A stretch of 64,000 bases of DNA, taken from assembly GCF_003957295.1 (NCBI RefSeq), contig NZ_RQPJ01000021.1:666210-730209 (forward strand), written 5' to 3'. The notes under the pieces are model-generated. The model had not been told where the DNA came from. It saw nothing but the letters and a program-made list of their open reading frames with translations, and did not search any database. How positions within the stretch are numbered: the first letter of the stretch is position 1; every line of letters begins with the position of its first letter. Shown in pieces: positions 3,874 through 61,008 of this stretch. The translations under genes were made by a program, and so were the position numbers. The stretch is from Arenibacter aquaticus. Lineage in GTDB: Bacteria; Bacteroidota; Bacteroidia; Flavobacteriales; Flavobacteriaceae.

Positions 3874-4040
3874 CCTATGGTTTTATAGTGTCACTTAAAA
3901 ATATCCATAAAGTTACAAAAATAGACTCTTTCCATATTTCTTTGGCCGTGCATTTTACCATGGTTTATATGGATAACTGACTCCCGGGCCAATGTAGGGC
4001 CTTATTTAATTGCAAACACCCTGTACAACAGCATTATAGT

Positions 4041-44691: not shown

Positions 44692-45819
44692 ATGAATCCC
44701 ATTAGGTCTATAACCCTATACCATCTAATGATCCAAGATCAGAAGATGATCGGTATAAAATTTATGCCGGACAAACTGGTACAGGCCCTTATAAAAAGTC
44801 TTCCAGACCCCAAATGGAGCCAACGTCACAATATGGCCTATATTCCCAACACCAAGGAAAACCTCGGCATAATATACAATACCTTTAGAGGTACGGTATG
44901 GATCAACTACAACCGGTTTTTTGCCAACAAGCCCCTAAATACCCATAACGAAGCCGTTGACGTTGATTGGTATAGAAAGAGAAAGCCTATACCTGATTAC
45001 CGTTATTGTCCAGAAGAATATCTCATAAAGCTGGAATTAAAGAGATATGCCAACAGCACGGTACGCACCTATGTTTCTTTCTTTGAAATGTTCATTAATC
45101 ATTACAAACACAAGGATCTCCACACTATTGATGAAAGCGATATCAGAGCTTTTCTGCAACAGTTAATTCAGCGCAAAGTATCCAACTCCTATTTAAACCA
45201 GGCCATAAACGCCATTAAATTCTACTATGAAGTGGTCATGGACATGCCCAACCGATTTTACGAGATAGAACGTCCTAGAAGGGAACATAAACTTCCCAAG
45301 GTGATATCCAAGGAGGAAGTTCTTTCCATTATTGAACACGCCAATAATTTAAAACATAAATGCATCATAAGCCTATTATACAGCTCGGGTTTGCGGCGTA
45401 GTGAACTATTGAATCTAAAACCCACTGACGTGGATAGCAAAAGGATGCTTATTCGTGTGAAGTCCGCCAAGGGTAATAAGGATAGGCATACTTTACTCTC
45501 ATCAACTGCTCTGGAAGATCTTAGAAGGTATTATAAGGAATGGAAACCTCAAATATATTTGTTCGAAGGACGTAAGGCCAATAGATATAGTGCAGAAAGT
45601 GTGTTGAAAATAGTTAAGGTAGCAGCTATAAAGGCAGGAGTGGGACAAACTGTTACCCCACATGTACTTCGTCATAGCTTTGCTACCCACCTATTGGAAT
45701 CAGGTGTGGACCTACGACAGATACAGGTACTATTAGGCCATGGTTCTAGCAAAACAACGGAAATATACACCCATGTAGCAACAAATACTTTTAATAATAT
45801 TAAAAATCCCTTAGATTAG
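44692..45819 (+). CDS. tyrosine recombinase, putative integron-type integrase
   Basis: 375 residues. After a unique N-terminal extension (1-95), a SAM-like core-binding domain (about 105-185) and a catalytic domain (200-375) follow. The catalytic set is complete: Arg235 in GLRRSE, Lys260, His324-x-x-Arg327 (HVLRHSF), His350 (LLGHGS) and Tyr359 (IYTHV). The end, THVATNTFNNIKNPLD, resembles the V/I-R/K-x-PLD ending of IntI integrases. I do not see the extra helix-containing insert that IntI proteins have before the H-x-x-R box. Unlike class 1 integrons, it points in the same direction as the cassettes. Confidence 0.87.
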   Translation: MNPIRSITLYHLMIQDQKMIGIKFMPDKLVQALIKSLPDPKWSQRHNMAYIPNTKENLGIIYNTFRGTVWINYNRFFANKPLNTHNEAVDVDWYRKRKPIPDYRYCPEEYLIKLELKRYANSTVRTYVSFFEMFINHYKHKDLHTIDESDIRAFLQQLIQRKVSNSYLNQAINAIKFYYEVVMDMPNRFYEIERPRREHKLPKVISKEEVLSIIEHANNLKHKCIISLLYSSGLRRSELLNLKPTDVDSKRMLIRVKSAKGNKDRHTLLSSTALEDLRRYYKEWKPQIYLFEGRKANRYSAESVLKIVKVAAIKAGVGQTVTPHVLRHSFATHLLESGVDLRQIQVLLGHGSSKTTEIYTHVATNTFNNIKNPLD

Positions 45820-45831
45820 TGGGCCTATAAT

Positions 45832-45872
45832 GGATATATAATGACTAGTTGTTATATCCGTACGTTGTAAGT
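45832..45872 (+). other. attI-like recombination site
   Basis: 45 nt or so after the integrase stop. GGATATA (45832) and TATATCC (45853) form an imperfect hairpin, followed by GTAC and the core GTTGTAAG at 45864. The step 'arm, 4-7 nt, GTTG' is the same as at the right side of each downstream attC-like site. It marks the left end of cassette 1. Function inferred. Confidence 0.6.
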
Positions 45873-46014
45873 AATGCGAAAATCGAGCTGAAATTCAACT
45901 TTTGAACTAAAAAAGCCAACCGCATAGTCAAGCACATTTCATTTTGCTCGTGCCTCACAAAATAAAAAAGAGCTTGCCTTTCCCCTACGCTCATTATTAC
46001 TGAATGATAATTTT

Positions 46015-46035
46015 AATACTCATTTAGTGAGTATT
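46015..46035. promoter_or_regulatory. operator-like inverted repeat upstream of the R-M HTH gene
   Basis: AATACTCA, 5-nt spacer, TGAGTATT: perfect 8-bp arms ending 47 nt before the HTH start. This is the arrangement of a controller-protein or autoregulatory box in R-M systems. Confidence 0.6.
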
Positions 46036-46081
46036 TGAAAATTGTTAACTACATTAGTTGACTGAATTAAAAAAATTCAAA

Positions 46082-46285
46082 ATGAACCGAATAAAAGAGG
46101 TTTTAGAACAGAAAGGAATAAAACAAATCTGGTTGGCTGAACAATTGGGAAAGAGTTACAATATGGTACATTCTTACGCCCAAAACAAAAGACAACCGAG
46201 TTTGGAAGACCTATACAAGATTGCGGAAATCTTGAATGTCGAAGTCAAAGAATTATTAATTGAAAGAACAGAACTAAATAAATGA
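46082..46285 (+). CDS. small XRE-type helix-turn-helix regulator of the R-M operon
   Basis: 67 residues from ATG 46082; an upstream TTG at 46058 is possible. Almost the whole protein is a Cro/C1-type HTH: GIKQIWLAEQLGKSYNMVHSYAQNKRQPSLEDLYKIAEIL. It overlaps hsdM by ATGA. A palindrome lies upstream. A role as controller of the restriction genes is inferred from position. Confidence 0.85.
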   Translation: MNRIKEVLEQKGIKQIWLAEQLGKSYNMVHSYAQNKRQPSLEDLYKIAEILNVEVKELLIERTELNK

Positions 46286-48336
46286 TTACAAAACAAGCAT
46301 TAGGAAGCACACTTTTTGGAATGGCTGACATTCTACGTGACAAAGTAGAAGATTATAAAGCATACATACTTTCACTACTATTTTTCAAACGTCTTTCGGA
46401 TAATTACGAATGGGAAACGGAAAACGAAATCAAGGAATTTGTAAAACGTGAAGGAAGACAACCAACAGAAGCGGAAAAAAGAATAATCGTAGGTAAAAAA
46501 CACGATTTTAAAATTCCAGCAGGTTGCTTTTGGAAAGATGTGCGTGATGCTTCACCTGACAAGAAAAATGAAAAACTGAACAAAGCAGTAAACGAAATTG
46601 CAGATGCCAATATTGACCGACAAGGAAAAGCAGTTTTAAAAGGTGTAATCAACACAGTACGTTGGAACGAACCTGCACCTGATGGTTCTGGTAGTAAAAA
46701 GTTAAGTCCACAGGTTTTAACTTCTTTAGTTAGTTATTTAGATGCTGTAGATTTAAGTAACAAAAATGCTTCTGTTGATGTTTTGGGAGATGCTTATGAG
46801 TATCTTATCAAGCGTTTTGCAGACGAAAACAAAGGTGGAACAACCGCTGGCCAATTTTATACACCTCAAGAAGTTGTTGATGTCATTGTTCGCTATTTAA
46901 AACCACAGAAAAACACAACGGTTTACGACCCAACTTGTGGTTCTGGTGGATTCTTGATTAACGCAGCTAAATATTGCAAAACAAACTACAACAACTCAAA
47001 AGCTATTCGCTTATTTGGTCAAGAAGATGTTTGGAACACTTGGGCGATTGCCAATATCAATATGATTCTTCACGGATTGGATGCTCGAATAGAAAAAGGA
47101 GACACCATTCTCGACCCAAAATTTGTAGAAGAAGACAACGAGCTTGAAATCAAACAATTTGATTTAGCAATGGCAAATTTTCCATTTTCGCAGGAGAACT
47201 GGACAAAAACAGGCAAACCAAAAAAAGATAGCAAGGGAAAAACCAAGAATAAAAAAGATGGTTCACCTCAATTGGAATATCCTAAAGATGGTTTTACAGA
47301 CCCTTATGGAAGATTAGTTTATGGACAACCACCTTATTCTAATGGAGATTTTGCTTTTTTACAACATATTGTGGCTTCAATATAAGATGATGGAAAAGCA
47401 GGAGTTGTTTGTCCGCAAGGTGTTTTGTTCAGAGGACAACCTGAAAAAACCGAAGAAGAAGACGGACAAAACCGAAAAGCAGATGATGAGTATTTAATTC
47501 GTAGAGGATTTTTACAAGGTAAAGTTGACCATAATGGCGAGTTTACAGAAGTGCACAATATTATTGATGCTATTGTAGTCTTACCTGGCAATTTGTTTTA
47601 TGGCACGACCATTCCAGGTGCTATTTTGTTTATCAATAAAAACAAACCAGCAGAACGTAAAGACAAAGTACTAATGGTTTATGCTGCCAAAGAAGGATGG
47701 TATAAAGAGGAAGCCAATATGAATGTGCTTTTACCACACGATATTTTGCGTATTTCTACCATTTTAGAAAGTTGGGGAGATTTGGAAATTGCAAAGACTT
47801 GGATTGATTCTCAAAAGACAAGACTTAAAAACTTAATACAGGAAGACCTTGATTTTAAACTATTAGAAATTAAAGAGTATTACGCAGAAGACATAGAAAT
47901 TAAAAAGGATAAACTGGCAAAAGCAAAAAAAGTAATTACAGACCGAGAAGCTGCCAACAAAAAACCAACAAAAGGACAAGAAAAAGCTGTTGTTACTGCT
48001 CAAACTGCTTTAGATAAACTCACCACAGAAAAAGAAAACAAAATAACAGCAGCACACGAACAAGCGGAAAAAGAACGTCAAGCTATTGATGATGTAGAAC
48101 AAGAACTCATTGCAATGTTGCAAGACCCAGAACTTCGCAAACGATACTTTGCAATTGCAGATATGGAAGAATTGGATGAAAACGAGTTTAATCTAAACAT
48201 ACCACGTTACGTAGATACGTTTGAACCTGAAGAAGAAATTGATTTAAAAGAAGCTATTATTGAATTTAAAGACACCATTTATAAAGAAAATGACTTGGAT
48301 AAGTCTATTAGTGAACTCTTAAAAGTATTGGCTTAA
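46282..48336 (+). pseudogene. hsdM: type I restriction-modification DNA methyltransferase subunit, interrupted by an in-frame stop
   Basis: The reading frame continues from 46282 to 48336 (684 codons) with one TAA at 47383-47385. The sequence on both sides is ordinary HsdM: ...FLQHIVASI, stop, DDGKAGVVCPQGVLFRG, so a lysine codon has likely become TAA. Features: HsdM N domain, SAM motif I DPTCGSGGFLINAAKYC near 214-230, and motif IV as NFPF near 297-300 instead of NPPF. The C-terminal 200 residues are a charged coiled coil. As written the methylase is truncated after residue 367. Single-base sequencing error is an alternative. Confidence 0.85.
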
Positions 48337-48337
48337 T

Positions 48338-49612
48338 ATGGAAAATATTGGTCAATACATAACAAAATATAGAAAGGGGAAAGTGCCAAAGCAACTTTTT
48401 GAAAATCAAGAAGAAGGTTTGCTACCCTACCTTTCGCCAGATTATTTAAGAAGAAAATCAAAACCTGAATTTTACGCTGAACCAACTGAAAAAGTTGTAG
48501 AAGTTGAAGATGGAGAAGTAATAGTTCTTTGGGATGGCAGTAATGCTGGAGAAATTTTCATTTCAAGAAAAGGAATTTTAGGTTCTACAATGGTCAAGTT
48601 AGAATTTAATGAAGATGAAATTTTCAAACCATATTTCTCTTTTTCATTCGAGTACTTGGAATATGTTTTAAAAGCAAAAACGGCTGGTTCTGGAATTCCT
48701 CACGCAGATAAAGGAGTAATTAAAAAACTTGACTTTTTTAAACCACCAAAACCAGAACAAACAGCGATTGCAATAATTCTTTCCAAAGTAAATGCAAACA
48801 TAGAAGCTGTAAATAAAAGTGTTAAAGCAGCCGAAAAACTCAAAAAAGCTTTAATGCAAAACTTACTAACTGGCAAATTAAAACCAGATGGTACTTGGCG
48901 TAAAGAAGATGAATTCTATGAGGATGAGAAGTTTGGAAAAATACCTGTTGGTTGGCAAATTATAAAAGGAAATAAGATTACAGATAAAATTACCAAAGGT
49001 CAATCACCAAAATGGCAAGGATTCGAATATCAAGATAACGGAATTCTATTTGTAACAAGTGAAAATGTTAGAGATGGATATATTGAAGTTGATAGTCCAA
49101 AGTATTTACCGATTGAGTTTCACAATAAAATTAAAAACAGTCAACTTCAAAAAGAAGATATTCTAATAAATATCGTTGGTGCTTCAATTGGTAGATGTGC
49201 TGTATTCAATTTAGATGTAGAATATGCCAATACTAATCAAGCTGTTTGTGTTTTTAGACCAAATGATGAAAATGATAGTGATTTTTTAGCCTATTATTTA
49301 CAAAACGGTTATACACAACAAAGGCTTTTAGGTACACAAGTTGAAACTGCAAGAGCAAATCTTTCATTGGGAGATTTTAGAAAGTTCAAATTTATTATAC
49401 CTAAATCAAAAGACGAACAGGTATTAATTGCAGAGAAATTAAATGAAGTAGTTTCTACTATTCAATCTAAACAAGATAAAATTAAAAAACTTCAACGCTT
49501 AAAAAAATCATTGATGCAAAATTTACTAACTGGTAAAGTCCGTTTGCCAAAAGAATTTATTGCACAATTTGTAAATGAGCTCGAAGTAACCAACACAACT
49601 ACAACAGCATAA
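48338..49612 (+). CDS. hsdS: type I restriction-modification specificity subunit
   Basis: 424 residues, two target-recognition domains (about 1-150 and 200-370) separated by a conserved helix and followed by a second. The helices end in the near-identical stretches ALMQNLLTGKLK (about 172) and SLMQNLLTGKVR (about 392), the internal repeat that gives HsdS its pseudo-twofold symmetry. It sets DNA sequence specificity for both methylation and cutting. The ATG is 2 nt after the hsdM stop. Confidence 0.92.
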   Translation: MENIGQYITKYRKGKVPKQLFENQEEGLLPYLSPDYLRRKSKPEFYAEPTEKVVEVEDGEVIVLWDGSNAGEIFISRKGILGSTMVKLEFNEDEIFKPYFSFSFEYLEYVLKAKTAGSGIPHADKGVIKKLDFFKPPKPEQTAIAIILSKVNANIEAVNKSVKAAEKLKKALMQNLLTGKLKPDGTWRKEDEFYEDEKFGKIPVGWQIIKGNKITDKITKGQSPKWQGFEYQDNGILFVTSENVRDGYIEVDSPKYLPIEFHNKIKNSQLQKEDILINIVGASIGRCAVFNLDVEYANTNQAVCVFRPNDENDSDFLAYYLQNGYTQQRLLGTQVETARANLSLGDFRKFKFIIPKSKDEQVLIAEKLNEVVSTIQSKQDKIKKLQRLKKSLMQNLLTGKVRLPKEFIAQFVNELEVTNTTTTA

Positions 49613-49616
49613 TTAT

Positions 49617-52600
49617 ATGGGACATTTAACAGAACTAAAAGGTGTAGAAAAACCAGTTACCGAATGGTTAAGTAAAATGGGCTGGTCATTCAAAAGTAAT
49701 GATGATTTAAAAACCTACGAACGTCCTTTTTCAAAACCCATTATTGAACAAATATTGGTAGAAAAAACAGCTTTAATAAATAATATAAGCGAAGAAGTTG
49801 CACAACACGCAGTTGAAATGCTGATGCAAAATCTAAACAATCCAATTCCTATTCTTGGAAATGAGGCGTTTTTAGACAAATTGGTTTCAGGTGTTACGCT
49901 TTCGGTAAAAGACAAAGACATTGATGTGCTTTTTATCGACTTTGAAAACATTTGGGAAAATGATTTTATCGTAACCAACCAGTTTTGGGTACAAGGTTAC
50001 AAAATGGTAAAAACTGATATTGTTTTGTTAGTTAATGGTGTTCCTTTAGTACCAATAGAAGCAAAACAAAGAGCCAGAAAAGGTACAAATTGGATGGAAG
50101 GTGTTCGTCAATTTTCAACTTATGACCAACGTGCAGATAAATTATATATGTGTCATTGTTTTGGTGTGGCTTGCAATGGTAGAATTACAAAATATGGTAT
50201 TCCAGGAGCTTCTTCTTCCTATTTCAACGAATGGAAAAACACCTTATTAGATGTAAGTCAACCCAATCCAATTTTAGAACCAACTAATGACCTTTGTCCA
50301 ACCTATCAAGATAAAAAAGACGGACTTTGGAATTTTGATGTTGACCGCTTACCAAATGGAGAAGTATTGGAGCGAATGAAACTTGGCATTATTGGCTTAT
50401 TACAACCAGCAAGAGTGTTGGATATTTTAAAACACTTTTTAGTTTTTGAACGAGAAGAAGGAAAAATTGTAAAAAAAGTAGCTCGATATCAACAGTTAAG
50501 AGCAGCCAATAAAATTGCAGATAGAGTTATAAAAGGCGATTTAGACCAAGGTGTAATTTGGCATACACAAGGTTCTGGAAAGAGTTTAACAATGCTTTAC
50601 ACAGCATACAAACTTCGCCAAAGTAAAGAGCTAAAAGACCCAACTATTTACATTGTAGTTGACCGTAAAGATTTGCGAGAACAAATTGGAGGAACTTTTG
50701 ACGATTGCGAATTTCCAAATGCAAGACCAGTAAATAATATTGGAGATTTAAAACATATTATTAAAACTTCACCTTCTGGCGTTTTTATCACGACCGTTCA
50801 AAAATTTGATGAATTAGGAGACCGACAAGATTTACGCGATAATGTAATTGTTTTAATTGACGAAGCACACAGAACGCAATACGGAAATTATCAAATGGAA
50901 TTGCAAGCAGTTTTACCAAACGCCAAACGATTTGCATTTACAGGAACACCAATTCCAAAAACGCACCAAGAATTTGGAATAGTTGACCAAGACAAAGGAA
51001 AACACGAATATTATTTAGATAAATACAGTATTCAAGATGCGATTGATGATGGAGCAACAAAACCAATTCGCTACACTTTTGGACCAACAGAATGGTTTTT
51101 AGACAAGGAGAAATTAAAAGAAGGCTACGAAGAAATAACAGCAGAACTTACAGAAGATGAAAAGAAAGCAGTAGAAAGAAGAGTTTCAGCTTGGAAAGTC
51201 TTTTTAAAGCATCCAGATAGAGTTGAAACACTTGCTAAAGATATTGCAACCGATTTTAAAGAAATGCTCGAACCACAAGGTTATAAAGCTCAAATAGTGG
51301 CTTGTGATAAAGAAGCTTGTGTTTTGTACTATAATGAACTAATCAATTATTTCGACCGTTCAGAAGTCGCAATAATATTTTCAACTGGACATTACGAAGA
51401 AGGAGAAAAATACGAACTCTACAAAGACCATTACAAAGAAGACAAAGAGCGTAAAAAACTAATAAAGCAGTTCAAGAAAAGAATTACAGAGGAAGAACAA
51501 AAAATGGGTAACAATCTGAAAATCTTCATTGTCTGTAATATGCTTTTAACTGGTTTTGATGCACCAATTGAGCAAACAATGTATTTGGATAGTCCTTTGC
51601 GTGACCACAATCTTTTACAAGCTGTAGCAAGAACCAACAGACCTTATGACGATAAAGTAACCAAGCTATCGAAAGAATTTGGACGAATAGTTGATTATGT
51701 TGGAGTCTTCCAAAATTATAAAGAAGCATTGAATTACGACCCAGAAGATATTGGCGAGTTTGAAGATGTAGAAAGTTTAGTGAAAACATTCCCTAAAGTT
51801 TTAGATGAAGCGTTTAAGCCTTTTGAAAACATTAAACTGGAAGATAGTTATGAATGTACAATGGCAATCGTGAGAAAGCTATCGGAAATTGACCACGGAA
51901 AATTTGAAAATGATTTTAGAGAAGTTATTCAACTTTGGGAATCAATTTCGCCTCATCCAGCATTGCGTGAATCTAAAATAAAATACTTGTGGTTAAATGA
52001 GATTTATGAAATCTATTTAGAAGAATTTAAACGATTGGATTTTGATGCAGAAATTTATGCAGCGAAAACACGAAAGTTAATTCAAGAAACCTCAAAACTA
52101 CTAAATTTTAAAGGTCATTTGCCTGAAATTTCAATTGATTCAGATTACTTAAATAAACTGAAAGAAATCAAGCTTGACCCTTCAGATAAAGCAGAAAAAA
52201 TCATCAGAGATATTGAAACCGTAATTCGTAAGAATGAAGTAAATAGTGCTGTTTATGTTGAGTTTCAAAATCGATTAGATGATTTGATTAAACAAAAACA
52301 AGAAGAAAGTTTGGCGATTGAAGAAATCTTAAATCAATTAGGCGAACTTTATTCAGAATTAGATGAAATTGCTTCGCTTCCTGAAAGAATGGGCTTTCCA
52401 GACAAAGGAAGTTTTGAGTTTTTTACAATCATAAAGAATGTTTCAGGAGAAACTTTTAATGAAGAATTGGTTAGAGAGTTTTCATTTGAAGCAGCGGAAA
52501 AAATAAAAGCCAAAATTTACAATGGTTGGCAAGAAGTTCCGAGAGAATTCGACCGTTTGAAATATGAAATTTTACTCTTGTCTGTAAATCCAAAATTTGA

Positions 52601-52679
52601 GGAATTAAAGATTGATGGAAATGGAGAATTGATGGAGCAAATTATGAAGGCTGTTTTACAGAATTATAAATTGAGTTAA
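49617..52679 (+). CDS. hsdR: type I restriction endonuclease / DNA translocase subunit
   Basis: 1020 residues. N-terminal PD-(D/E)xK nuclease: TDIVLLVNGVPLVPIEAKQ near 137-155 (D...E-x-K). Then the SF2 motor: Walker A HTQGSGKS near 314-321, DEAH box near 413, motif III FTGTPIPK, and motif VI QAVARTNRP. The C-terminal part is helical. It cuts unmodified DNA after translocating. It follows hsdS by 4 nt and its stop overlaps the next ATG by 1 nt. All motifs are intact, in contrast to the broken methylase gene. Confidence 0.93.
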   Translation: MGHLTELKGVEKPVTEWLSKMGWSFKSNDDLKTYERPFSKPIIEQILVEKTALINNISEEVAQHAVEMLMQNLNNPIPILGNEAFLDKLVSGVTLSVKDKDIDVLFIDFENIWENDFIVTNQFWVQGYKMVKTDIVLLVNGVPLVPIEAKQRARKGTNWMEGVRQFSTYDQRADKLYMCHCFGVACNGRITKYGIPGASSSYFNEWKNTLLDVSQPNPILEPTNDLCPTYQDKKDGLWNFDVDRLPNGEVLERMKLGIIGLLQPARVLDILKHFLVFEREEGKIVKKVARYQQLRAANKIADRVIKGDLDQGVIWHTQGSGKSLTMLYTAYKLRQSKELKDPTIYIVVDRKDLREQIGGTFDDCEFPNARPVNNIGDLKHIIKTSPSGVFITTVQKFDELGDRQDLRDNVIVLIDEAHRTQYGNYQMELQAVLPNAKRFAFTGTPIPKTHQEFGIVDQDKGKHEYYLDKYSIQDAIDDGATKPIRYTFGPTEWFLDKEKLKEGYEEITAELTEDEKKAVERRVSAWKVFLKHPDRVETLAKDIATDFKEMLEPQGYKAQIVACDKEACVLYYNELINYFDRSEVAIIFSTGHYEEGEKYELYKDHYKEDKERKKLIKQFKKRITEEEQKMGNNLKIFIVCNMLLTGFDAPIEQTMYLDSPLRDHNLLQAVARTNRPYDDKVTKLSKEFGRIVDYVGVFQNYKEALNYDPEDIGEFEDVESLVKTFPKVLDEAFKPFENIKLEDSYECTMAIVRKLSEIDHGKFENDFREVIQLWESISPHPALRESKIKYLWLNEIYEIYLEEFKRLDFDAEIYAAKTRKLIQETSKLLNFKGHLPEISIDSDYLNKLKEIKLDPSDKAEKIIRDIETVIRKNEVNSAVYVEFQNRLDDLIKQKQEESLAIEEILNQLGELYSELDEIASLPERMGFPDKGSFEFFTIIKNVSGETFNEELVREFSFEAAEKIKAKIYNGWQEVPREFDRLKYEILLLSVNPKFEELKIDGNGELMEQIMKAVLQNYKLS

Positions 52680-53335
52680 TGGAGTTACCAGATAACTACA
52701 TATTAATCCGAAAGGAAGTAAAACACGCTCGACTTCGAGTAAGTGAAGATGGAAAAGTACGCATAATTGCACCACCAGACTTTTCAGAGGACGATATCAA
52801 TTCAATGTTGAAGAAAAAAAACAGATGGATTGATAAAAACCTAAAGTATTTTGATGGAAAGTCGTCCATTGAATTAAAGAGAAATCAATTATTACTTTTC
52901 GGAAATAGATACGCATATTTTTATGACACAACCTATTCGCAAAAGGTTACAGTTGACCACGAACACAAAACAATAAATTCGAAAAGAGATTTACTTGACC
53001 CAAAAGTTCAGGAAAAATGGTATCGAAAAGTTGCTAAAAAACATTTGACAATACGGACAAACCAACTTGCCGAAAACTTGAATTTTAAACACAATAAACT
53101 ATTCATTCGAGAATCCAGAACGAAATGGGGAAACTGTTCGAGAGAAAAGAATATCTCATTGAACTGGAAATTGATAAAAGCACCTGAATATGTGATTGAC
53201 TATATTATAATTCACGAATTGATGCATACTGTAGTAATGAATCACACACATAAATTCTGGACTTTAATGAAATCATATTATCCGAATTATAAAGAATCAA
53301 TAAAATGGTTAGAAAAATATGGAAATAGTTTATGA
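52679..53335 (+). CDS. YgjP-like zinc metallopeptidase (DUF45) with the R-M operon
   Basis: 218 residues. The zinc site HELMH (about 178-182) is followed by NHTHKFW, and WGNCSREKNISLNWKL precedes it, the standard pattern of YgjP/DUF45. The gene is coupled to hsdR by a one-base overlap and is a frequent extra gene of type I systems. Its target is unknown; processing of a restriction subunit would be a guess. Confidence 0.88.
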   Translation: MELPDNYILIRKEVKHARLRVSEDGKVRIIAPPDFSEDDINSMLKKKNRWIDKNLKYFDGKSSIELKRNQLLLFGNRYAYFYDTTYSQKVTVDHEHKTINSKRDLLDPKVQEKWYRKVAKKHLTIRTNQLAENLNFKHNKLFIRESRTKWGNCSREKNISLNWKLIKAPEYVIDYIIIHELMHTVVMNHTHKFWTLMKSYYPNYKESIKWLEKYGNSL

Positions 53336-53474
53336 AAAGCCAACGCTCAAAGCCATACACATTCGCAATTCGCTGCAGACAACGCAACGCCAAAAATTGC
53401 AAAAGAGTATGTCTTGCCAACGCTCACATTTGAACTAAATAACAAACATCGGAAAACAAAGTAGAACGTGAAAA
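53336..53474. other. non-coding tail of cassette 1
   Basis: 139 nt with repeated AACGC/CCAACGCTC words (53349, 53394, 53430). They look like worn cassette-end sequences, which may mean that cassette 1 grew by fusion of smaller cassettes. Confidence 0.4.
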
Positions 53475-53685
53475 GCACTACTTACAACAACGTGTATAAA
53501 ACATAGCTATTATAGGCTTTCCGAGAGGTTTTTGTATATTTACAAAGTACGCCAAATTTTTTATTTGGTTATATTTATAAAAGAAAATTAAACATAAAAA
53601 TAAAAAATTCGGCTTGTGCTAAATCCGAAAAGTAAGCGTTTATTTATACGCTACGTTTCATACACAAGACCGTTAACTACAAGTG
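53475..53685 (+). repeat. attC-like site 1
   Basis: Left core CTTACAAC (to 53488), arms GTGTATAAAACATAGC and GCTACGTTTCATACAC, right core GTTAACTAC at 53674. The left core complements the start of cassette 1 (45864), the right core belongs to cassette 2. About 200 nt, with an AT-rich inner loop. Confidence 0.75.
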
Positions 53686-53704
53686 CTCCAAAAAAAAATA
53701 CTAA

Positions 53705-54100
53705 TTGAAAAATATTATTCTTATTTCATTATTTCTTTTCTGCCTTCTGAATATTTACGGACAGGAAAACGGTCGGACTTATTTGCACCGAGGACACCAA
53801 TATAATTACACATATTGTTATTCGGTACAAAAATTAACCATAAAAACTGACTCGACATATATTTGGGACAGCTATTGTTTAATTAGCAAAAAAGAGTGGA
53901 AATCATATAAGAATTTACGACCTGAGAAATCAGTTGGAAAAATCACTCGAAATGGAGAATATTATTTATTGACCGAATTTAGAAACGGGAATAAAACGGA
54001 CTATACTTGGACTGTGAAAATAACTGACAAAAAAATTCTCTTCTATCTTGAAAATGCAAACGGAAAATTAAAAAAAGTGACGAAATATAGACGGATTTGA
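53705..54100 (+). CDS. cassette 2 protein: small secreted protein, unknown
   Basis: 131 residues from TTG 53705. A clear signal peptide (1-19, ending IYGQ) and a beta-rich mature part (YNYTYCYSVQKLTIKTDSTYIWDSYC ... YTWTVKITDKKILFYL patterns). No family recognised. It is the only gene of a 688-nt cassette and begins 31 nt after its GTT. About 137 nt of unexplained DNA lie between its stop and the next attC-like site. Confidence 0.65.
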   Translation: MKNIILISLFLFCLLNIYGQENGRTYLHRGHQYNYTYCYSVQKLTIKTDSTYIWDSYCLISKKEWKSYKNLRPEKSVGKITRNGEYYLLTEFRNGNKTDYTWTVKITDKKILFYLENANGKLKKVTKYRRI

Positions 54101-54236
54101 ATTTTGAGAAAACCCAGTAAAGAATGTTGAATAGCCACAAATCGAATTTTTGAGCAACTTTACGCAGATGGACTTTACTCAGACGGAAAAAAACGAAAAC
54201 GGAATCGAAATGTGCTCACTCGCACGTGTCGCACGA

Positions 54237-54371
54237 GTAGTTAACAATGGCTATAATTCAGCGTTGCCGAACCGCCAATAACAAAATTCATTACCTTTAA
54301 CCGGCATGATCCCAGCTTGAAAAATCCCACCGGATTTTCTCGCCGAAATCATAGCCAAACCGTTGGCAAAC
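54237..54371 (+). repeat. attC-like site 2
   Basis: Left core GTAGTTAAC (54237-54245), arms TGGCTATAATTC and GAAATCATAGCCA, right core GTTGGCAAA at 54362. The left core is the exact reverse complement of the start of cassette 2. Confidence 0.78.
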
Positions 54372-54397
54372 ATGCTAAAGATAACTATTCCCTATAA

Positions 54398-54787
54398 ATG
54401 AAAATCAATTTTCAATGCATAGAACTGACAATACAGGATGAAGAGTTAGGGTGTACTATTACATTTTCAGATTCAAGGTCAACGGATGACCAGTTTAAAA
54501 CCGAGGAAGAGATAATGAATAGCGTTAAGAAATATCTTTTGATTCAAAGAACTTACGCCGAAGATGAAGATGACGTAGAGCATTACTACATTGAATCTTC
54601 CGAATCCTATATGGATTTTAAACCTAACGAAAAAATGATTATGAGCATAAACCAGGACAGGCTTGAAACCAAATGTAATGGAGAACAAGTGATAATAGGC
54701 TTGAATCTAAAAAAACAAGAATTTGAAAATTTGTTACGGATTTTGGAAACTAAATTTAATGAACGGGTAACGATACGCAGACTATAA
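54398..54787 (+). CDS. cassette 3 protein: acidic cytosolic protein, unknown
   Basis: 129 residues, no signal peptide, acidic (EDEDDVEHYYIESSE stretch), alternating beta strands and one closing helix (QEFENLLRILETKF). I recognise no family. It starts 36 nt into the cassette and stops 12 nt before the next attC-like core, so the cassette is almost all gene. Size and acidity resemble immunity proteins, but there is no toxin next to it. Confidence 0.62.
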   Translation: MKINFQCIELTIQDEELGCTITFSDSRSTDDQFKTEEEIMNSVKKYLLIQRTYAEDEDDVEHYYIESSESYMDFKPNEKMIMSINQDRLETKCNGEQVIIGLNLKKQEFENLLRILETKFNERVTIRRL

Positions 54788-54798
54788 AAAAAGCACGA

Positions 54799-54998
54799 TT
54801 TGCCAACAGTACCTATAAGCAATGCGGGCCTTGGTGTTCAAATCAAAGTTTTGTCTATATTTATGAGGAGCAAAACCTTTTTAGGTTTGCTTCAACAAAT
54901 AAAAAATAACCAAACCCTCCAAGCTTTTGCTTGGGAGAGTCCGGAATGGTAAGTGAATACTTGTCACCGCACTGCCTATAGCTCGGGCGTTGCCCACA
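54799..54998 (+). repeat. attC-like site 3
   Basis: Left core TTTGCCAAC (54799-54807), arms CCTATAAGCAATGCGG and CCGCACTGCCTATAG, right core GTTGCCCACA at 54989. About 200 nt; the inside is related to that of site 6. Confidence 0.8.
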
Positions 54999-55002
54999 AT
55001 TA

Positions 55003-55551
55003 ATGCGAACCTCTAAAGCTCTTATTTTACTAATCTTTTTAATAAGCTTTGGCTCATGCGTTGAATCAAAGCATCAAGATCAGGTCAACCTGAAATTACA
55101 GGAGTTTAAGGATGCTATTTACTCCGGTCAGACCTATCTTTTTTATCATCAAAACGATTCAATTGGAGAATGGGGAGGAACTGAAATTCTTTTGAAGTTG
55201 AAAGGGGATCCGGAAAGTAAAAAGGTTTTGTTAGATATAAAAAAAGTCCTCGCATCCAAAGTTCCTCCTCCACCCCCTCACTCGGATTCTTTGAGGATCT
55301 ATTATGACAAACTAACAATCATTGACACAAGTGATATCACCTTGGATGATGATCAGGTGTTGCTTGCAATAAAATCAATCTCAGAGCTATCTCAGCGAAA
55401 ATTAATAAGCACACCAAATTCCGGGTACTATTGTTTCGATGGACATAAACATGAAATCATCAATGCAGATTCAACGCTTATTATTTCGGACTGCACTTCT
55501 TTACCTTGGGAGAGCTTCCTAGAACTAAATAGATCCTTAAAAAATAAATAA
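55003..55551 (+). CDS. cassette 4 protein: lipoprotein, unknown
   Basis: 182 residues. Signal with lipobox FGSC (about Cys19). Mature part contains a proline run (KVPPPPPHSDS, near 91) and otherwise no known domain. The ATG lies 14 nt after the cassette GTT and the stop is 2 nt before the next core, the tight packing usual for integron cassettes. Role unknown. Confidence 0.65.
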   Translation: MRTSKALILLIFLISFGSCVESKHQDQVNLKLQEFKDAIYSGQTYLFYHQNDSIGEWGGTEILLKLKGDPESKKVLLDIKKVLASKVPPPPPHSDSLRIYYDKLTIIDTSDITLDDDQVLLAIKSISELSQRKLISTPNSGYYCFDGHKHEIINADSTLIISDCTSLPWESFLELNRSLKNK

Positions 55552-55552
55552 C

Positions 55553-55690
55553 TGTGGGCAACAACGGGTCATGCCCAATAGCTAGCCCTCTCCCTCCTAT
55601 CGAATTATTCCTCTATATTTAAAACCTTTACCGGGAATGCGCCAGGTATTATATCGCCGCTACTGGGCATACCCGAAAACGTTGTGGTGC
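55553..55690 (+). repeat. attC-like site 4
   Basis: Left core TGTGGGCAAC, arms GGGTCATGCCCA and TGGGCATACCC, right core GTTGTGGTGC at 55681. Its 138 nt are about four-fifths identical to site 5 (shared blocks CAATAGCTAGCCCTC and CTCTATATTTAAAACC). Confidence 0.85.
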
Positions 55691-55703
55691 ATTAAAATCG
55701 ATT

Positions 55704-56360
55704 ATGCTTTTTAGATTATTCCAATTAATCTTGACAACGTTGATCATAGTTGGTTGTAAACACCACCAAGACAAGGACCCTGTTAACTTATCGCCTGATA
55801 ATAAAGCTAGCACCCTAATACATGGCAGGAGGGATGGTAGAACCGTTACAAAGGAAGGAGAATTAAAACTGGATCAATTTACCGGTTTCAGATCACTTTT
55901 AAATAGAGCGGATGAAATAACATGCAGTGACAGTATTCCCTTCATACAAATTGAAAAAAATGAAAATAGGCATAAATTCTATATAGACTTGGATTGCTGG
56001 AGTGACGGAATTATATACGATTACAGCCAAAAGAATATCTTAATAATCCATAATGATAGTATAGAAAAGAGGTTAATAAATCCATGGGTTATCCGCAGAT
56101 TTCATATCGACGAACTTGAAGCAGTACTAAAAAAGGATTTGACAAATAAAGGTAGTGATCCAAATTGGAGCGTTAACCCCTCAAAACTGATCTTAAATAT
56201 TTCTGTTTCTGAAAATAGATTGGAACAATTACCTATTATATTCAATGAATTGGCCGAGGCGTCGGAACGTCACAAACTGAAGATGGATTTTAGAATATGG
56301 CTAGCAGATTATCTTCCTCATTTTATTCCTCCTGAACCTCCAATTCAAAATAAGAACTAA
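55704..56360 (+). CDS. cassette 5 protein: lipoprotein, unknown
   Basis: 218 residues. Signal peptide with lipobox IVGC (about Cys18). The mature domain (residues 60-210) is alpha/beta (FYIDLDCWSDGIIYDYSQ; LILNISVSENRLEQLPIIFNEL) and I cannot assign it. It fills its cassette: 23 nt before, 2 nt after. Confidence 0.65.
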   Translation: MLFRLFQLILTTLIIVGCKHHQDKDPVNLSPDNKASTLIHGRRDGRTVTKEGELKLDQFTGFRSLLNRADEITCSDSIPFIQIEKNENRHKFYIDLDCWSDGIIYDYSQKNILIIHNDSIEKRLINPWVIRRFHIDELEAVLKKDLTNKGSDPNWSVNPSKLILNISVSENRLEQLPIIFNELAEASERHKLKMDFRIWLADYLPHFIPPEPPIQNKN

Positions 56361-56361
56361 C

Positions 56362-56497
56362 GCACCACAACAACGGGTATGTCCAATAGCTAGCCCTCAC
56401 TCACTATCGAAATAATCCTCTATATTTAAAACCTGAACCGGGAAAGCACCAGGTACTAAAACGCCGCCACTGGGCATACCCGTAACCGTTGTGCTTA
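56362..56497 (+). repeat. attC-like site 5
   Basis: Left core GCACCACAAC (to 56371; 13/14 complementary to the start of cassette 5), arms GGGTATGTCCA and TGGGCATACCC, right core GTTGTGCTTAAT at 56488. Close relative of site 4. Confidence 0.85.
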
Positions 56498-56520
56498 ATA
56501 TTGAAAAAACGAAATCATCG

Positions 56521-56937
56521 ATGAAAAATCCATTGTTATTACTACTAATAGTATTTTTTATTGGACTAACTATGACTGCGCAAGAATTGACTTGTGCAGA
56601 TTTTAAAAATGGAACTTTTATTGTTCCAAAAGCATCGGAAGATTCACCTGAATATAAATTAGTCCGAGATGGAAATTCTCAAATGGAAATTATCGAAATG
56701 AACGGACAAACCATCACACTTTACGGAATTTTGGAATGGATTGATGAATGTTCATACAAGTTGATTTATGACGAAACTAAGATGAATCTCCCTGAAGAAA
56801 TTCAATTTGTTAATGATAATGGAGGAATTGTCTCGGAGATGTTAAAGATTGAAGATAATTGCTTTTTCTATAAATCCGTTCTCATTGTTGACGGAAAGGA
56901 AACTAAAAGGATTGATGGAAAATACTGTGCGCAATAA
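56521..56937 (+). CDS. cassette 6 protein: small secreted protein, unknown
   Basis: 138 residues from ATG 56521 (a GTG 10 codons upstream is part of the recombination core). Signal peptide about 20 residues ending TMTAQ. The mature part has paired cysteines (LTCADF, DECSYKL, DNCFFYK, KYCAQ) that may form two disulfides, and a strand-rich body. No family recognised. Confidence 0.66.
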   Translation: MKNPLLLLLIVFFIGLTMTAQELTCADFKNGTFIVPKASEDSPEYKLVRDGNSQMEIIEMNGQTITLYGILEWIDECSYKLIYDETKMNLPEEIQFVNDNGGIVSEMLKIEDNCFFYKSVLIVDGKETKRIDGKYCAQ

Positions 56938-56941
56938 ATAC

Positions 56942-57124
56942 TAAGCACAACAAAACCTATAAACAATACGGGCTTGGCTGTTTAAAATATAAACCCGGAA
57001 TATCAACAAACACCGCCAAATCTTTTGGATTTGGCATTAAATAAAAAAAGAAAAAGCAAAACAAAAAGGTTTGGCTACGGGCGTGACGGAATGTAAGTGC
57101 TAACTTGCCCCCGTACTGTTCATA
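56942..57124 (+). repeat. attC-like site 6, left part (split by a group II intron)
   Basis: Left core TAAGCACAAC (to 56951), left arm CCTATAAACAATACGGG, and right arm CCCGTACTGTTCATAG up to 57124. The rest of the right side (TAAAC then GTTGTGCATAATG at 59035) lies after the intron. Without the intron the site is about 200 nt and related to site 3. Confidence 0.78.
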
Positions 57125-57610
57125 GTGTGCCAAGAAGCAGCCACGGCAATAAAATGACTGCGTGCTGTAAATAAGATGATGGTAGGCCCATCAGAGTCGT
57201 TGTATAGGCGATGGCTCTAAACCACCCAAAGGTGCTGTTGTGAACAGCAATGGTGCTGAGCGTTTGGGAGAATCCGATCCATGAGGTCAGCAGGTGGGAA
57301 TAAAGGAGTTGAACGAAAGTGAACCATTGAAGAGGTGTCGAGAAGTTGCGTACCTCCAGTCAAAAGCTACGAAGTATGATACGGAGTGAAAAGTGATGTT
57401 GCTCATAACATCAATTGCAGAGATTACCTATTTATTTTCTGTAGGGCTGGCGTCATTCAGATGGCAAGAACTTTATTCAGGCTTATTTACGGAACTTGGG
57501 AAACTGTATGCAAATGCCAAGGGAAATGCACAATAAGAACAACTTAGAGGCAAAATACCGATAGTGCATGCAGCGGCAGACCAAGCCGTAGTAGTGTTGA
57601 GATTTCTGTA

Positions 57611-58939
57611 ATGGAAATGGAGCGAAGGACTTGGGTTGTACCGTTTTATTTTATTGACCAACTCATAAGAATGAGGATGAATTCATGGAATGAAACAAAA
57701 TCAATACCGATAAGCCGCCAAATGGTTTGGGAGGCTTATCAAAAAGTGCGCTCCAACCAAGGGAGTGCGGGAGTAGATGCGGTAAGTATACAAGAATATG
57801 ATACCAATCGCAGCAAACACTTGTACAAACTATGGAATCGAATGGCATCGGGGAGCTATTTTCCTCCGCCCGTCAAAGAGGTGGAAATACCCAAGAAGGA
57901 TGGAAGCATCCGAAAACTGGGCGTGCCCACCATAAGCGACAGGGTTGGACAAATGGTAATCAAGATGTTCATAGAGCCAAGATTAGAGGCGGTATTCAGT
58001 CCAAATTCTTACGGTTATCGACCGAATAGAAATGCACATCAAGCGTTGCAAAAAGTTCGGGAAAACTGCTGGAAACAAGACTGGGTAATCGACCTTGACA
58101 TCAAAGGATTCTTCGACAACATTGACCACCAGAAACTGATGCTAGCCGTAAAGAAGCACGTACCCGAAAATTGGGTCGTTCTTTACATCGGTCGATGGTT
58201 GGAAGCACCCGTTTTTACAACATCCGGACAACTCGTACAAAAAGAAGGGAAAGGAACACCGCAAGGAGGCGTAATAAGCCCACTCTTGGCGAACCTATTT
58301 CTTCATTACGCTTTTGACAAATGGTTGGAAAATGCGAATGCTGATGTACAGTTTGCACGTTATGCCGACGATGCGATCGTACATTGTAAAAGCAAAGCTC
58401 ACGCAAAACAGATACTAAATGCGGTACATCTAAGGATGGAATCGGTAGGATTGGAACTACATGCACAAAAGACGAAAATCGTCTATTGCAGAGATTATCG
58501 ACGTAAAGGAAAACACCCGATTGTCAAGTTTGATTTTCTGGGCTATTCCTTTCAGCCGAGAAGTGCATTTTCCAAGAAAACAAAGAAAATGTTCTTAGGT
58601 TATGATTGTGCAATCAGTATCAGTTCGAGAAAACGAATCGCCGACAAGTTAGGAGAACTCAACGTGAACAGGTTAAATTTTAGAAGCATCGTAGGAGTTG
58701 CCCAATACCTAAATCCAATGATCAGGGGATGGGTGCGTTACTACGGTAAATTTAAGATGTACGAACTCACAAAAGTCTTCCGACTGCTAAGCGCGCGATT
58801 GGTTTGGTGGGCAAGGAGAAAGTATAAGCGCTACAAAACCAGCATGGGAAAAGCCTATAAATGGTTGACAACAGTCAGGAAGCAATTTCCGACTTTGTTC
58901 TACCATTGGCGACTTTCTGAAATAAATGTAGTAGCTTAG
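57611..58939 (+). CDS. ltrA: group II intron reverse transcriptase/maturase
   Basis: 442 residues from ATG 57611; the conserved part begins at MNSWNETKSIPI, so ATG 57677 may be the true start. RT motifs are intact: RKLGVPTISDRVGQ, PNSYGYRPNRNAHQAL, DLDIKGFFDNIDH, PQGGVISPLLANLF, and YADD near 251-254. A maturase X-domain follows (SIVGVAQYLNPMIRGWVRYYGKF). No HNH endonuclease domain is seen, as in the class C type. It splices and mobilises the surrounding intron. Confidence 0.92.
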   Translation: MEMERRTWVVPFYFIDQLIRMRMNSWNETKSIPISRQMVWEAYQKVRSNQGSAGVDAVSIQEYDTNRSKHLYKLWNRMASGSYFPPPVKEVEIPKKDGSIRKLGVPTISDRVGQMVIKMFIEPRLEAVFSPNSYGYRPNRNAHQALQKVRENCWKQDWVIDLDIKGFFDNIDHQKLMLAVKKHVPENWVVLYIGRWLEAPVFTTSGQLVQKEGKGTPQGGVISPLLANLFLHYAFDKWLENANADVQFARYADDAIVHCKSKAHAKQILNAVHLRMESVGLELHAQKTKIVYCRDYRRKGKHPIVKFDFLGYSFQPRSAFSKKTKKMFLGYDCAISISSRKRIADKLGELNVNRLNFRSIVGVAQYLNPMIRGWVRYYGKFKMYELTKVFRLLSARLVWWARRKYKRYKTSMGKAYKWLTTVRKQFPTLFYHWRLSEINVVA

Positions 58940-58952
58940 ATTTGTATAACAA

Positions 58953-58986
58953 GAGCCGTATGATGGGAGACTATCACGTACGGTTC
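58953..58986 (+). ncRNA. group II intron domain V
   Basis: 34 nt: GAGCCGTATGAT, GGGAGA turn, then CTATCACGTACGGTTC, with the catalytic AGC triad in GAGCC. Domain VI and the 3' end follow. Confidence 0.87.
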
Positions 58987-59021
58987 TGTGAGAGGCTCGG
59001 GGTGAAATTCCCCTTGCCTAC

Positions 59022-59047
59022 TCGATGCCTAAACGTTGTGCATAATG
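59022..59047 (+). repeat. attC-like site 6, right end
   Basis: The exon downstream of the intron: GATGCCTAAAC then the core GTTGTGCATAATG at 59035, which opens cassette 7. Confidence 0.72.
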
Positions 59048-59116
59048 TAAAAAAACAACGAGAATGCATCAAAAGTGTCAAATGAAAAGCGGAAAACTTA
59101 ACTCAAATATTACGGA

Positions 59117-59635
59117 TTGAAACGGAAAGAAATTTTTTGGCTGATAGCTACATTTGGTATTTCAATAATTATTAGTCTGATTTTGCTTGGACTTAATTGC
59201 TTCAGCTCATCAACTACTGACATTAATATTCACGATACTTATTTCGTTGTGGAAAAAAATGAATTGTCCCTGCTAATTATCAAGGTTACTTTTTTCCTTG
59301 TATACCTAATCAGAATGCTAAAAAGAAAATTCAAAAATTTAGCGGCAAATCTGATTTTTATGATTGCCAATGTACTTATGAATTTTTCGGTTGTTGGATT
59401 ATTTTCACTGATTAAATCTTTTGCTCGTTCGACAGGAGTGATTGAAAATAATATGACAAAAAATTCTATGTTAGATAGTGGTTCAACCGAATATATTATT
59501 TTGTGGTTGATATTTTTGATGTTTCAAATATTCTTGCTGATTTCGCTCGGATATACTGGGTTTAAAACCGGACTGAATTACAAAAATAATGGAGAAAACA
59601 CTATGCACAACAATGTATCCTATGAAAAGCACTAG
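59117..59635 (+). CDS. cassette 7 protein: integral membrane protein, unknown
   Basis: 172 residues from TTG 59117. Four hydrophobic helices (about 8-28, 52-66, 75-95, 125-148). A loop after helix 1 reads TTDINIHDTYFVV, like the HDTYFVV element of haem-copper oxidase subunit I, though the haem ligands are absent. The last 10 codons run into attC-like site 7 and stop inside it. Role unknown. Confidence 0.66.
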   Translation: MKRKEIFWLIATFGISIIISLILLGLNCFSSSTTDINIHDTYFVVEKNELSLLIIKVTFFLVYLIRMLKRKFKNLAANLIFMIANVLMNFSVVGLFSLIKSFARSTGVIENNMTKNSMLDSGSTEYIILWLIFLMFQIFLLISLGYTGFKTGLNYKNNGENTMHNNVSYEKH

Positions 59636-59952: not shown

Positions 59953-61008
59953 TTATTCCAATACCCCTATCACATAAGGGGTCTCCGTCTTTATTACCGC
60001 CAGTGTCCTGCTTAGCAGTTTCCTGGCCACCTTTACAATGATACTCTTTACATTTTTCCCATGGTGTTTGCGGTAAAAAGCCTGCATCACAGGATCCGTG
60101 CGAATAGCCTGCCAAGAAGCCTCAATGAAATAACTCCGTATTAAGCGGTGGGCACGCATGCTCACCCCCGTATGACGGACGGTATCACCACTTTGGTAAA
60201 TGCCCGGTGCCAGACCTACATATCCGGCCAAATGTTTAATATTCTTAAAACGGCGCAGGTCTCCCAATTCACTCAAAATACCACTGGCAACTATTGGACC
60301 TATACTGGGAATACTTCGTAGAAGCATATAATCTTTCTTAAAATGGATTTTGGTATACCTCCGCAATAAGGTGGAAACATCACGAAACTCCTGATCAATA
60401 AACCGAAAGCTGCGCATCCGGCTGCGCAAAACTTCATTGCCCGTATCATACTAAAAGTCCAAATTATCAATCCAACCCCTAAATTTATGACTCCAATGGT
60501 CGTTATCTAGATCCTGTGGTATTCTGATCCCATAATACAACAATTGCATTTTGATATAGCTCTTGATTTGCCGCATATCCTTTACCAAATCGTTCCTACG
60601 GCGAAACAGACTACGTAGTTGCTCCCTACATTTATCCGCTACACAAATACTTTTCAGCTTATCATCTTTAAGTTCTCGCGCTATAAGTTGTGCGTCTATT
60701 CGGTCTCTTTTGGTGTGGCGCTCTTTGCCTTTTCTAAAAATATCGGCTGGATTGACCACCAATGACCGCCAGCCATAACTTACAAAGCAACGATGTGCGT
60801 GGTATCCGCAACAGCCCGCTTCATAGGCGGTAGACACTTCATAACCTGGATAATGTTTGGCTACATATTCGCAAAGTAATTCGGCATGCGGTTGCATACT
60901 AAAAGTCTTGCCAGATGACAGATCGGTGGCACAGTGTACTTTCCAACTGCGTTTGTGTATATCGATTCCAATGAATAACTTAGGTGTGGCAGTAATTTGA
61001 GTGTTCAT
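59953..61008 (-). pseudogene. IS110-family transposase with an in-frame amber codon
   Basis: Two same-frame pieces, 185 residues (61008-60451) and 158 residues (from 60429), are split by one TAG after IDNLDF. The N-terminal RuvC-like DEDD domain has FIGIDIHKRSW and KRDRIDAQLIAREL; the C-terminal Transposase_20 part has LRSIPSIGPIVASGILSELGDL and LAGYVGLAP with the catalytic serine region. Gene otherwise complete (352 codons), so inactivation is recent, or the stop is a sequence error. Confidence 0.82.

Follow-up and report, generated by a model that had tools for sequence, protein, structure and literature searches.

A probable class D group II intron in an attC-like site of Arenibacter aquaticus, and the cassette array around it

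The stretch of DNA analysed here, referred to as the window, comprises 64,000 nucleotides (nt) of contig NZ_RQPJ01000021.1 of the flavobacterium Arenibacter aquaticus (RefSeq assembly GCF_003957295.1); coordinates are those of the window, and features are on the + strand unless stated otherwise. It contains a complete group II intron of 1902 nt (57125-59026), which splits a palindromic site resembling the attC recombination sites of integrons into two parts, 56945-57124 and 59027-59041. All the features of a group II intron are present, namely the GUGYG start, domains I, V and VI, and an open reading frame (ORF) for a reverse transcriptase (RT)-maturase. The intron starts with GTGTGCC and ends with CTACTCGAT. 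Part of domain I of the ribozyme is matched by the Rfam family RF01999 (group-II-D1D4-2) at 57178-57295 (E 1.5e-20, 104.9 bits), and the 3' end by Intron_gpII at 58951-59026 (E 4.7e-11). Domain V (58953-58987), located by Rfam and by folding (3' part, z -5.8), starts with GAGCC and carries the triad AGC at 58954-58956, and domain VI (58990-59023), located by folding, has a bulged A at 59020, 7 nt before the 3' end. The intron-encoded protein (IEP) of 442 amino acids (57611-58939; Pfam, TIGR04416 family) consists of RT and maturase X with the motif YADD; Pfam found only RVT_1 and GIIM in it, and no HNH endonuclease (En) domain.

The interrupted site is the sixth of a series (attC 6). Its left part includes the R'' box GCACAAC (56945-56951), a long loop and the L' box, and its right part is GCCTAAACGTTGTGC, with the R' core GTT at 59035; excision of the intron joins ...CCCGTACTGTTCATA to GCCTAAACGTTGTGC. 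The left arm, CCTATAAACAATACGGG, lies at 56956-56972 and the right arm, CCCGTACTGTTCATA, at 57110-57124. An earlier note on this DNA had described the arms, the intron start GTGTGCC, domains V and VI and the core GTTGTG at 59035, and all of them were present on re-reading, with two of the arm coordinates each off by one. The G after the right arm is the first base of the intron, and the site's own G is at 59027. A DNA search with the left flank gave matches in all 18 genomes of the genus, its own included, and five foreign loci (L159-L163, from other genomes of the genus) were fetched. All five read CCCGTACT(G/A)TTCATAGC(C/T) uninterrupted across the junction, and because of this both intron borders are supported, with no sign of duplication or loss. 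As a check, the earlier note had asked for site 6 without the intron; the five loci provide its long-loop type of site, but in other cassettes, and do not represent site 6 itself. Elsewhere in the same genome (C9:27510-27866), a decayed relic of the same intron (L096) was observed, with GCACTACTCATA a few hundred bases upstream.

In an RT tree of 90 rows, obtained by a quick search and with long branches flagged, the window IEP falls within a 24-row clade (support 99 in the Shimodaira-Hasegawa-like approximate likelihood ratio test), all from Bacteroidota except for one metagenome-assembled genome (MAG) of Fidelibacterota. This clade is nested in an 81-row group which also holds L112, whereas GsI-IIC, the RT of PDB entry 7uim and the references L113 and L114 form a separate group (support 96). 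L113 and L114 are RTs from class 1 integrons with intI1, and the label IIC-attC that we use for them is our own. We take L112 to be RmInt1 of Sinorhizobium meliloti and RmInt1 to be of class D, and 7uim to be the IIC RT of E. rectale. With RmInt1 as class D, the accessible parts of PMC3552965 are consistent. The ribozyme leads in the same direction, RF01999 being common to the window and L112 (107.3 bits), while L113 and L114 match RF02001 and RF01998. Finally, the domain V triad of the window is AGC, as against CGC in IIC introns according to the accessible parts of PMC7923331, a comparison made with a literature rule. The tree, the RNA family and the triad together thus argue for class D / IIB and not IIC, and by its sequence the intron is of the RmInt1 type.

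Recognition of the target can be described by pairing between the exon-binding sites (EBS) of the intron and the intron-binding sites (IBS) of the exon. When the columns of the introns were scanned for covariation with the positions of the exon, the top region (z 5.5, 0 of 300 shuffles) placed EBS1 (TATGAT) at 57375-57380, where it pairs with IBS1 (TTCATA, 57119-57124), that is, exon bases -1 to -6; a first guess for EBS1, ATGAGG further upstream, was dropped in favour of this position. EBS2 (GCGTAC, 57348-57353) pairs through its GTAC with IBS2 (GTAC, 57113-57116), which lies in the L' box of the site. Among relatives, the EBS1 loop varies with the exon, being TATGCT for AGCATA in L027, GGATGG for CCATCT in L023 and AAGTT for AACTT in L031, and the EBS2 loop (GTTGC, GTAGG, GTGGG or GCGTAC, depending on the intron) pairs with exon bases about -9 to -13. 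Over 23 introns the EBS2-IBS2 pairing score is 104.5 against a shuffled mean of 94.6, with 0 of 3000 shuffles as good, but the introns share ancestry and the shuffle counts for both EBS are not true probabilities. The exon bases read in this way fall in the spacer and the L' box of the site, so that linear pairing would be enough for specificity; therefore, recognition of a folded site is not needed to explain the target.

These results bear on the proposal of the earlier note that this is a class C intron of the IIC-attC group, reading a folded attC. It is true that the target is attC-like, that an En domain is missing and that the top PDB matches of the IEP in phmmer, at about 155-161 bits, include the GsI-IIC RT and 7uim; to our knowledge, no class D RT is among the PDB chains listed by phmmer. 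When the RT was classified, as had been suggested along with the proposal, it grouped with RmInt1 (presumably class D) and apart from the class C references. As for the En domain, the note was right that the maturase has no HNH, but this does not point to class C, because En is also missing from classes A, D, E and F (PMC3552965, in the parts accessible). Moreover, IIC introns have a stem-loop in the place of IBS2, and none of them is known to use an IBS2 (PMC7923331, in the parts accessible), and the intron and the neighbouring cassette genes are all on the + strand, as opposed to L113 and L114, which run opposite to their cassettes. Membership of class C is thus contradicted by five features: the position in the RT tree, the family in Rfam, the triad AGC, the use of EBS1 and EBS2 (the pairing of EBS2 with IBS2 in particular) and the orientation. 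We have rejected it, and leave it next to no probability.

The fold of the site was studied in 14 joined target sites of relatives, the window excluded. Over 17 pairs, 92% of the cells are standard pairs, 11 of the 17 pairs have changed on both sides, and pairs straddling the insertion point covary; none of 500 shuffles reached any of the five measures used, and sliding the partner by one column left 28% paired. A covariance model, R1, was built from 14 occupied sites, leaving out L014, L016, L018, L023 and the window (the left arms of L016, L018 and L023 were not resolvable within 220 nt). It gave 43 matches in 34 loci, all oriented like the intron, 18 of them occupied and 25 without an intron. 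The conserved palindrome, kept by all 14 alignable target sites and with changes on both sides in 11 of 17 pairs, could also mean that a class D intron needs the hairpin, so that its target would be the folded site and not just the linear right arm. This seems to us rather unlikely. The model from occupied sites also matches empty ones, and the palindrome can therefore be explained by selection for recombination; in addition, EBS1 and EBS2 together span the right arm, and pairing there would open the hairpin.

At E 1e-6, model R1 had matches in 83 of the 100 genomes sampled from Flavobacteriaceae and in 56 of 148 from Bacteroidota, and the site numbers per genome are lower bounds (33 or 22 candidates per genome were scored). 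The search of 30 genomes outside Bacteroidota, chosen from the loci by title, gave no match at E 1e-3, an empty result that shows nothing alone and is read beside the positive searches. The attC sites of class 1 integrons were not recognised by R1 (best E 4.3). Among 249 empty sites, the motif [TC]C[AT]TA, corresponding to the 5' exon end, is present in 184, and in 178 of these it stands 8-9 nt before GTT.

The specificity of the intron clade was assessed on the exons of the window and of 30 relatives at an identity of about 60% or above (L002-L027, L031, L109-L111), some with one flank only: L024 is without its 5' half, L020 and L022 are without 5' exons, and L004, L006, L008 and L011 without 3' exons. 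The core CGTT is reached in 26 of the 27 readable 3' exons, in L111 only past a second intron. Automatic scoring placed CGTT within 17 nt after the intron in 22 of 25 clade loci, to which L015, the window and L021 can be added on reading, as compared with 1 of 39 scored relatives outside the clade (L039). The 5' exon ends with [TC]C[AT]TA in 19 of 24 readable cases. Around 53 out-of-clade loci, a covariance model of the sites found nothing at 52, even at E 1. The exception is L029 (3043-3200), where the intron, from a neighbouring clade and 50% identical, directly follows an attC that is intact and lies within the start of the cassette. The claim that the intron lineage is specific for attC-like sites is thus upheld by evidence separate from cassette ends (3' exons, covariation and model R1), and the clade is, judging from its exons, dedicated to this Bacteroidota attC family. 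In a Mesonia MAG, identical introns of 1902 nt (L012, L013) occupy two different attC sites, and in Gelidibacter maritimus at least four different 5' junctions were found, at contig ends where the assembly may have merged copies; such copies in different sites show recent movement.

The intron lies in an array of cassettes. In the window, R1 matched three sites that no intron interrupts, with scores of 40-44 bits, attC 2 (54238-54368, 44.4 bits), attC 4 (55555-55687, 40.5 bits) and attC 5 (56364-56494, 43.5 bits), and two weak halves of a fourth, attC 1 (53481-53678; part matches of 19.5 and 17.7 bits, ends read), which closes the first cassette. Another site, attC 3 (54801-54995), was recognised by eye, and its ends match both neighbours. 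From 45864 to 59607, all seven cassettes have matching ends, at 9-10 of 10 nt. The first, which is 7.6 kb long and consists of a whole type I restriction-modification operon together with a YgjP-like peptidase, likewise has ends that match; its hsdM is split in two ORFs (46282-47385 and 47425-48336), matching different parts of the N6_Mtase model. Downstream, an element of the insertion sequence (IS) family IS110 (59953-61008, - strand) is located in or beside the next attC, whose left half starts at 59605 and whose possible right half, by eye, is at about 61150; IS110/IS1111 elements that target attC are known.

In genomes of Flavobacteriaceae, loci L124-L136 and L138-L157 are large co-oriented arrays with a median cassette of 660 bp, many of them headed by a homologue of the recombinase of the window. 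In 19 of 33 array stretches searched with R1 (249 sites; in one set, 150 of its 156 matches were covered), the five bases past GTT are perfectly complementary to the five before the AAC of the next site in 208 of 226 cassettes. When the two ends of a single site are compared, 11 of 248 are perfect, and shuffled sets average 7.2 and never exceed 17. A separate test on 25 cassettes gave 216 of 250 matching bases, where shuffles averaged 144.5 and none of 10000 did as well. Complementary ends of this kind around GTT are the R''/R' signature of integron cassettes. The integron consensus being GTTRRRY, GTT is followed by G or A in 223 of the 226 cassettes; the second base is T (109), G (75) or C (42), and the third C (104), G (64), A (55) or T (3). 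Four sites of L017 share a common left end, TTTATAGTTGTGCAACAGCCACA, and L026 has part of the same sequence, GTTGTGCAACAGCCACA.

The array is headed by a tyrosine recombinase (44692-45819), which retains the catalytic residues (R235, H324, R327, H350 and Y359 of the window protein stand in invariant columns of the alignment) and in which the IntI-specific insert is absent; the insert columns of intI1 are gaps in all five aligned Bacteroidota recombinases. The IntI family model TIGR02249 scores 206 bits on the window protein, below its cut-off of 265. The gene ends 44 bp before an attI-like crossover point, GTTGTAAG (45864-45871), which matches attC 1 at its left end as the complement in 10 of 10 nt. 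Homologues were tested for their surroundings as 20 of the 22 best matches after the own genome, from 100 genomes, two at contig starts being skipped. Eighteen of the 20 head arrays, with R1 sites within the fetched stretch, and all 102 R1 sites of these 18 loci are downstream of the recombinase on the same strand, with none upstream; in the remaining two a contig edge lies less than 200 bp behind the gene. Many of the homologues have an N-terminal extension of about 100 amino acids. Among arrays fetched for their sites, those of G031 and G104 (L129, L131) have a homologue at their 5' end and that of G085 has one upstream, while the second array of G031 (L126) has no recombinase within the stretch fetched. 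Co-orientation is not universal, the recombinase being divergent to the nearest listed sites in G102 and G061.

If the sites were merely terminator-like or repetitive extragenic palindrome-like intergenic palindromes with conserved sequence, and not recombination sites, the wide spacing of the listed matches in some genomes, such as G148, would be easily understood. We regard this as very improbable, given that the complementarity of cassette ends extends across 226 cassettes and is rare within single sites, that the arrays have one orientation in the stretches read, and that a recombinase heads the array in 18 of 20 cases. Plain targeting of terminators by the intron was rejected as well, as the sites are arranged in arrays of one orientation and the ends of the cassettes match. 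The attC-like identity of the sites, which the earlier note had put forward, is therefore better supported than stated there. On this evidence the sites are attC-like, and the host array is predicted to be a system of presumably mobile cassettes with a tyrosine recombinase of non-IntI type at its head.

Taken as a whole, the data make it highly probable that the window holds a mobile class D (IIB-type) intron inserted in the top strand of an integron-type attC, in its right arm, between TTCATA and GCC. Several points weigh against this conclusion, beginning with the limits given above for the tree, the identity of L112, the triad and the shuffle counts. The pairing in the window is short (4 bp for EBS2-IBS2 and 5 bp for EBS1-IBS1), and in some introns, such as L003, L025 and L110, there are mismatches to the present site. 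Five of the 24 readable 5' exons depart from [TC]C[AT]TA (L021, L023, L026, L027 and L031), and L031 is the only 3' exon of the clade without CGTT after the intron. Model R1 missed attC 3 of the window and gave no match in the own genome (G000) at E 1e-6, against eight at E 1, which we attribute to divergence of the Arenibacter sites. In L017, the ends and starts failed to match in the three cassettes tested. Finally, the fold of the first 491 nt of the intron is uninformative (z -1.46 against shuffles).

Mobility itself could be questioned, because an intron not independently mobile into attC might have inserted once in an ancestor and then been spread by recombination of the cassettes. In favour of such a history, shuffling is expected of cassette arrays, and almost all copies are in an attC. 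However, identical introns are found in attC sites with different arms, and EBS1 changes with the exon (L023, L027), which makes passive carriage most unlikely. For the mobile intron, the following course may be proposed. The intron RNA with its RT would reverse-splice into single-stranded top-strand DNA, and cDNA synthesis would be primed from the replication fork, as is suggested by the missing endonuclease; the accessible parts of PMC4424553 describe primers from the replication fork for introns without En. Being in the same orientation, the intron would be co-transcribed with the cassettes and then splice out, and for this reason no gene would be harmed. At the DNA level, the site, split by 1.9 kb, would no longer fold for recombination. 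On this account, targeting of attC evolved independently in class D introns, and on the other strand than in IIC-attC.

The introns of this clade may have parasites of their own. In L015 (Gelidibacter maritimus, 3020-4279), two ORF-less group II introns are in tandem within one attC, and in L111 (G161, 1628-2251) a relative of the second of them follows the RT-coding intron. The follower introns of L015 and L111 have a hairpin loop with GTCGAG, similar to an EBS1, which is the complement of the CTCGAC ending the preceding intron. In these two cases, the simplest reading is that the follower intron takes the 3' end of another intron as its homing target. A third tandem junction was observed outside the clade, at L065:5336.

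Integrons of Bacteroidota have received little detail in the sources consulted. The accessible parts of the IntegronFinder 2.0 paper name for Bacteroidetes no more than In0 elements and, in Salinibacter, a single complete integron (PMC9024848), and those of PMC9668308 and PMC8618304 name Bacteroidota among the phyla with integrons, without detail. In the open-access literature and a few subscription papers, partly accessible and without preprints, no description was found of class D introns in attC or of these flavobacterial arrays, which is weak evidence. Apparently, a large cassette-collecting system has so far been overlooked in these bacteria, and the array exposed by the intron may deserve more attention than the intron itself. 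We incline, by a small degree, to the view that Bacteroidota have their own widespread integron-type system, with a recombinase without the IntI insert described as essential, a dedicated class D intron clade which reads the right arm of attC, and second-tier, ORF-less parasite introns. The intron has served as an unbiased detector, as a model made from its targets alone matched 83 of 100 Flavobacteriaceae genomes.

Among known elements, the IIC-attC introns (S.ma.I2 type; L113 and L114) are close in habit, being likewise an attC-dedicated lineage without En, in or beside the attC stem (PMC7923331, in the parts accessible). They differ in RT clade and ribozyme family, in running opposite to the cassettes (same source) and not in the cassette sense as here, in the lack of a known IBS2, and in the attC family used, the class 1 attCs being outside the reach of R1 (best E 4.3). 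Specificity for attC as a trait of a lineage was formerly tied to class C introns, with a stem-loop for IBS2; a second, unrelated lineage that uses the other strand and pairs with IBS1 and IBS2 would make the question of structure or sequence directly testable. RmInt1 (L112), an intron of class D / IIB3, shares with the window intron the RT clade, RF01999 and the missing En, at 46.9% identity. It recognises its target by EBS1 and EBS2, and homes to an IS, not to attC. IIB introns, like that of the window, are also described in integrons of hypersaline samples, namely UHB.I2 (CL1) and H.ha.F1/F2 (class E). UHB.I2 has the same cassette orientation, but is located just downstream of attC, and all of these have IEPs of other classes, with no dedicated clade described in the accessible parts of the source (PMC7923331).

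As regards the array, class 1 and chromosomal integrons are alike in having a recombinase by the array, an attI-like point, R''/R' ends around GTT and structured sites. The arrays described here differ from IntI integrons in that the insert is missing in the five aligned recombinases, many of the proteins carry the N-terminal extension, the recombinase points with the cassettes in 18 loci, and the consensus past GTT-R does not appear to follow RRRY. Should the recombinase of these arrays prove active, an integron-type system can do without the IntI insert.

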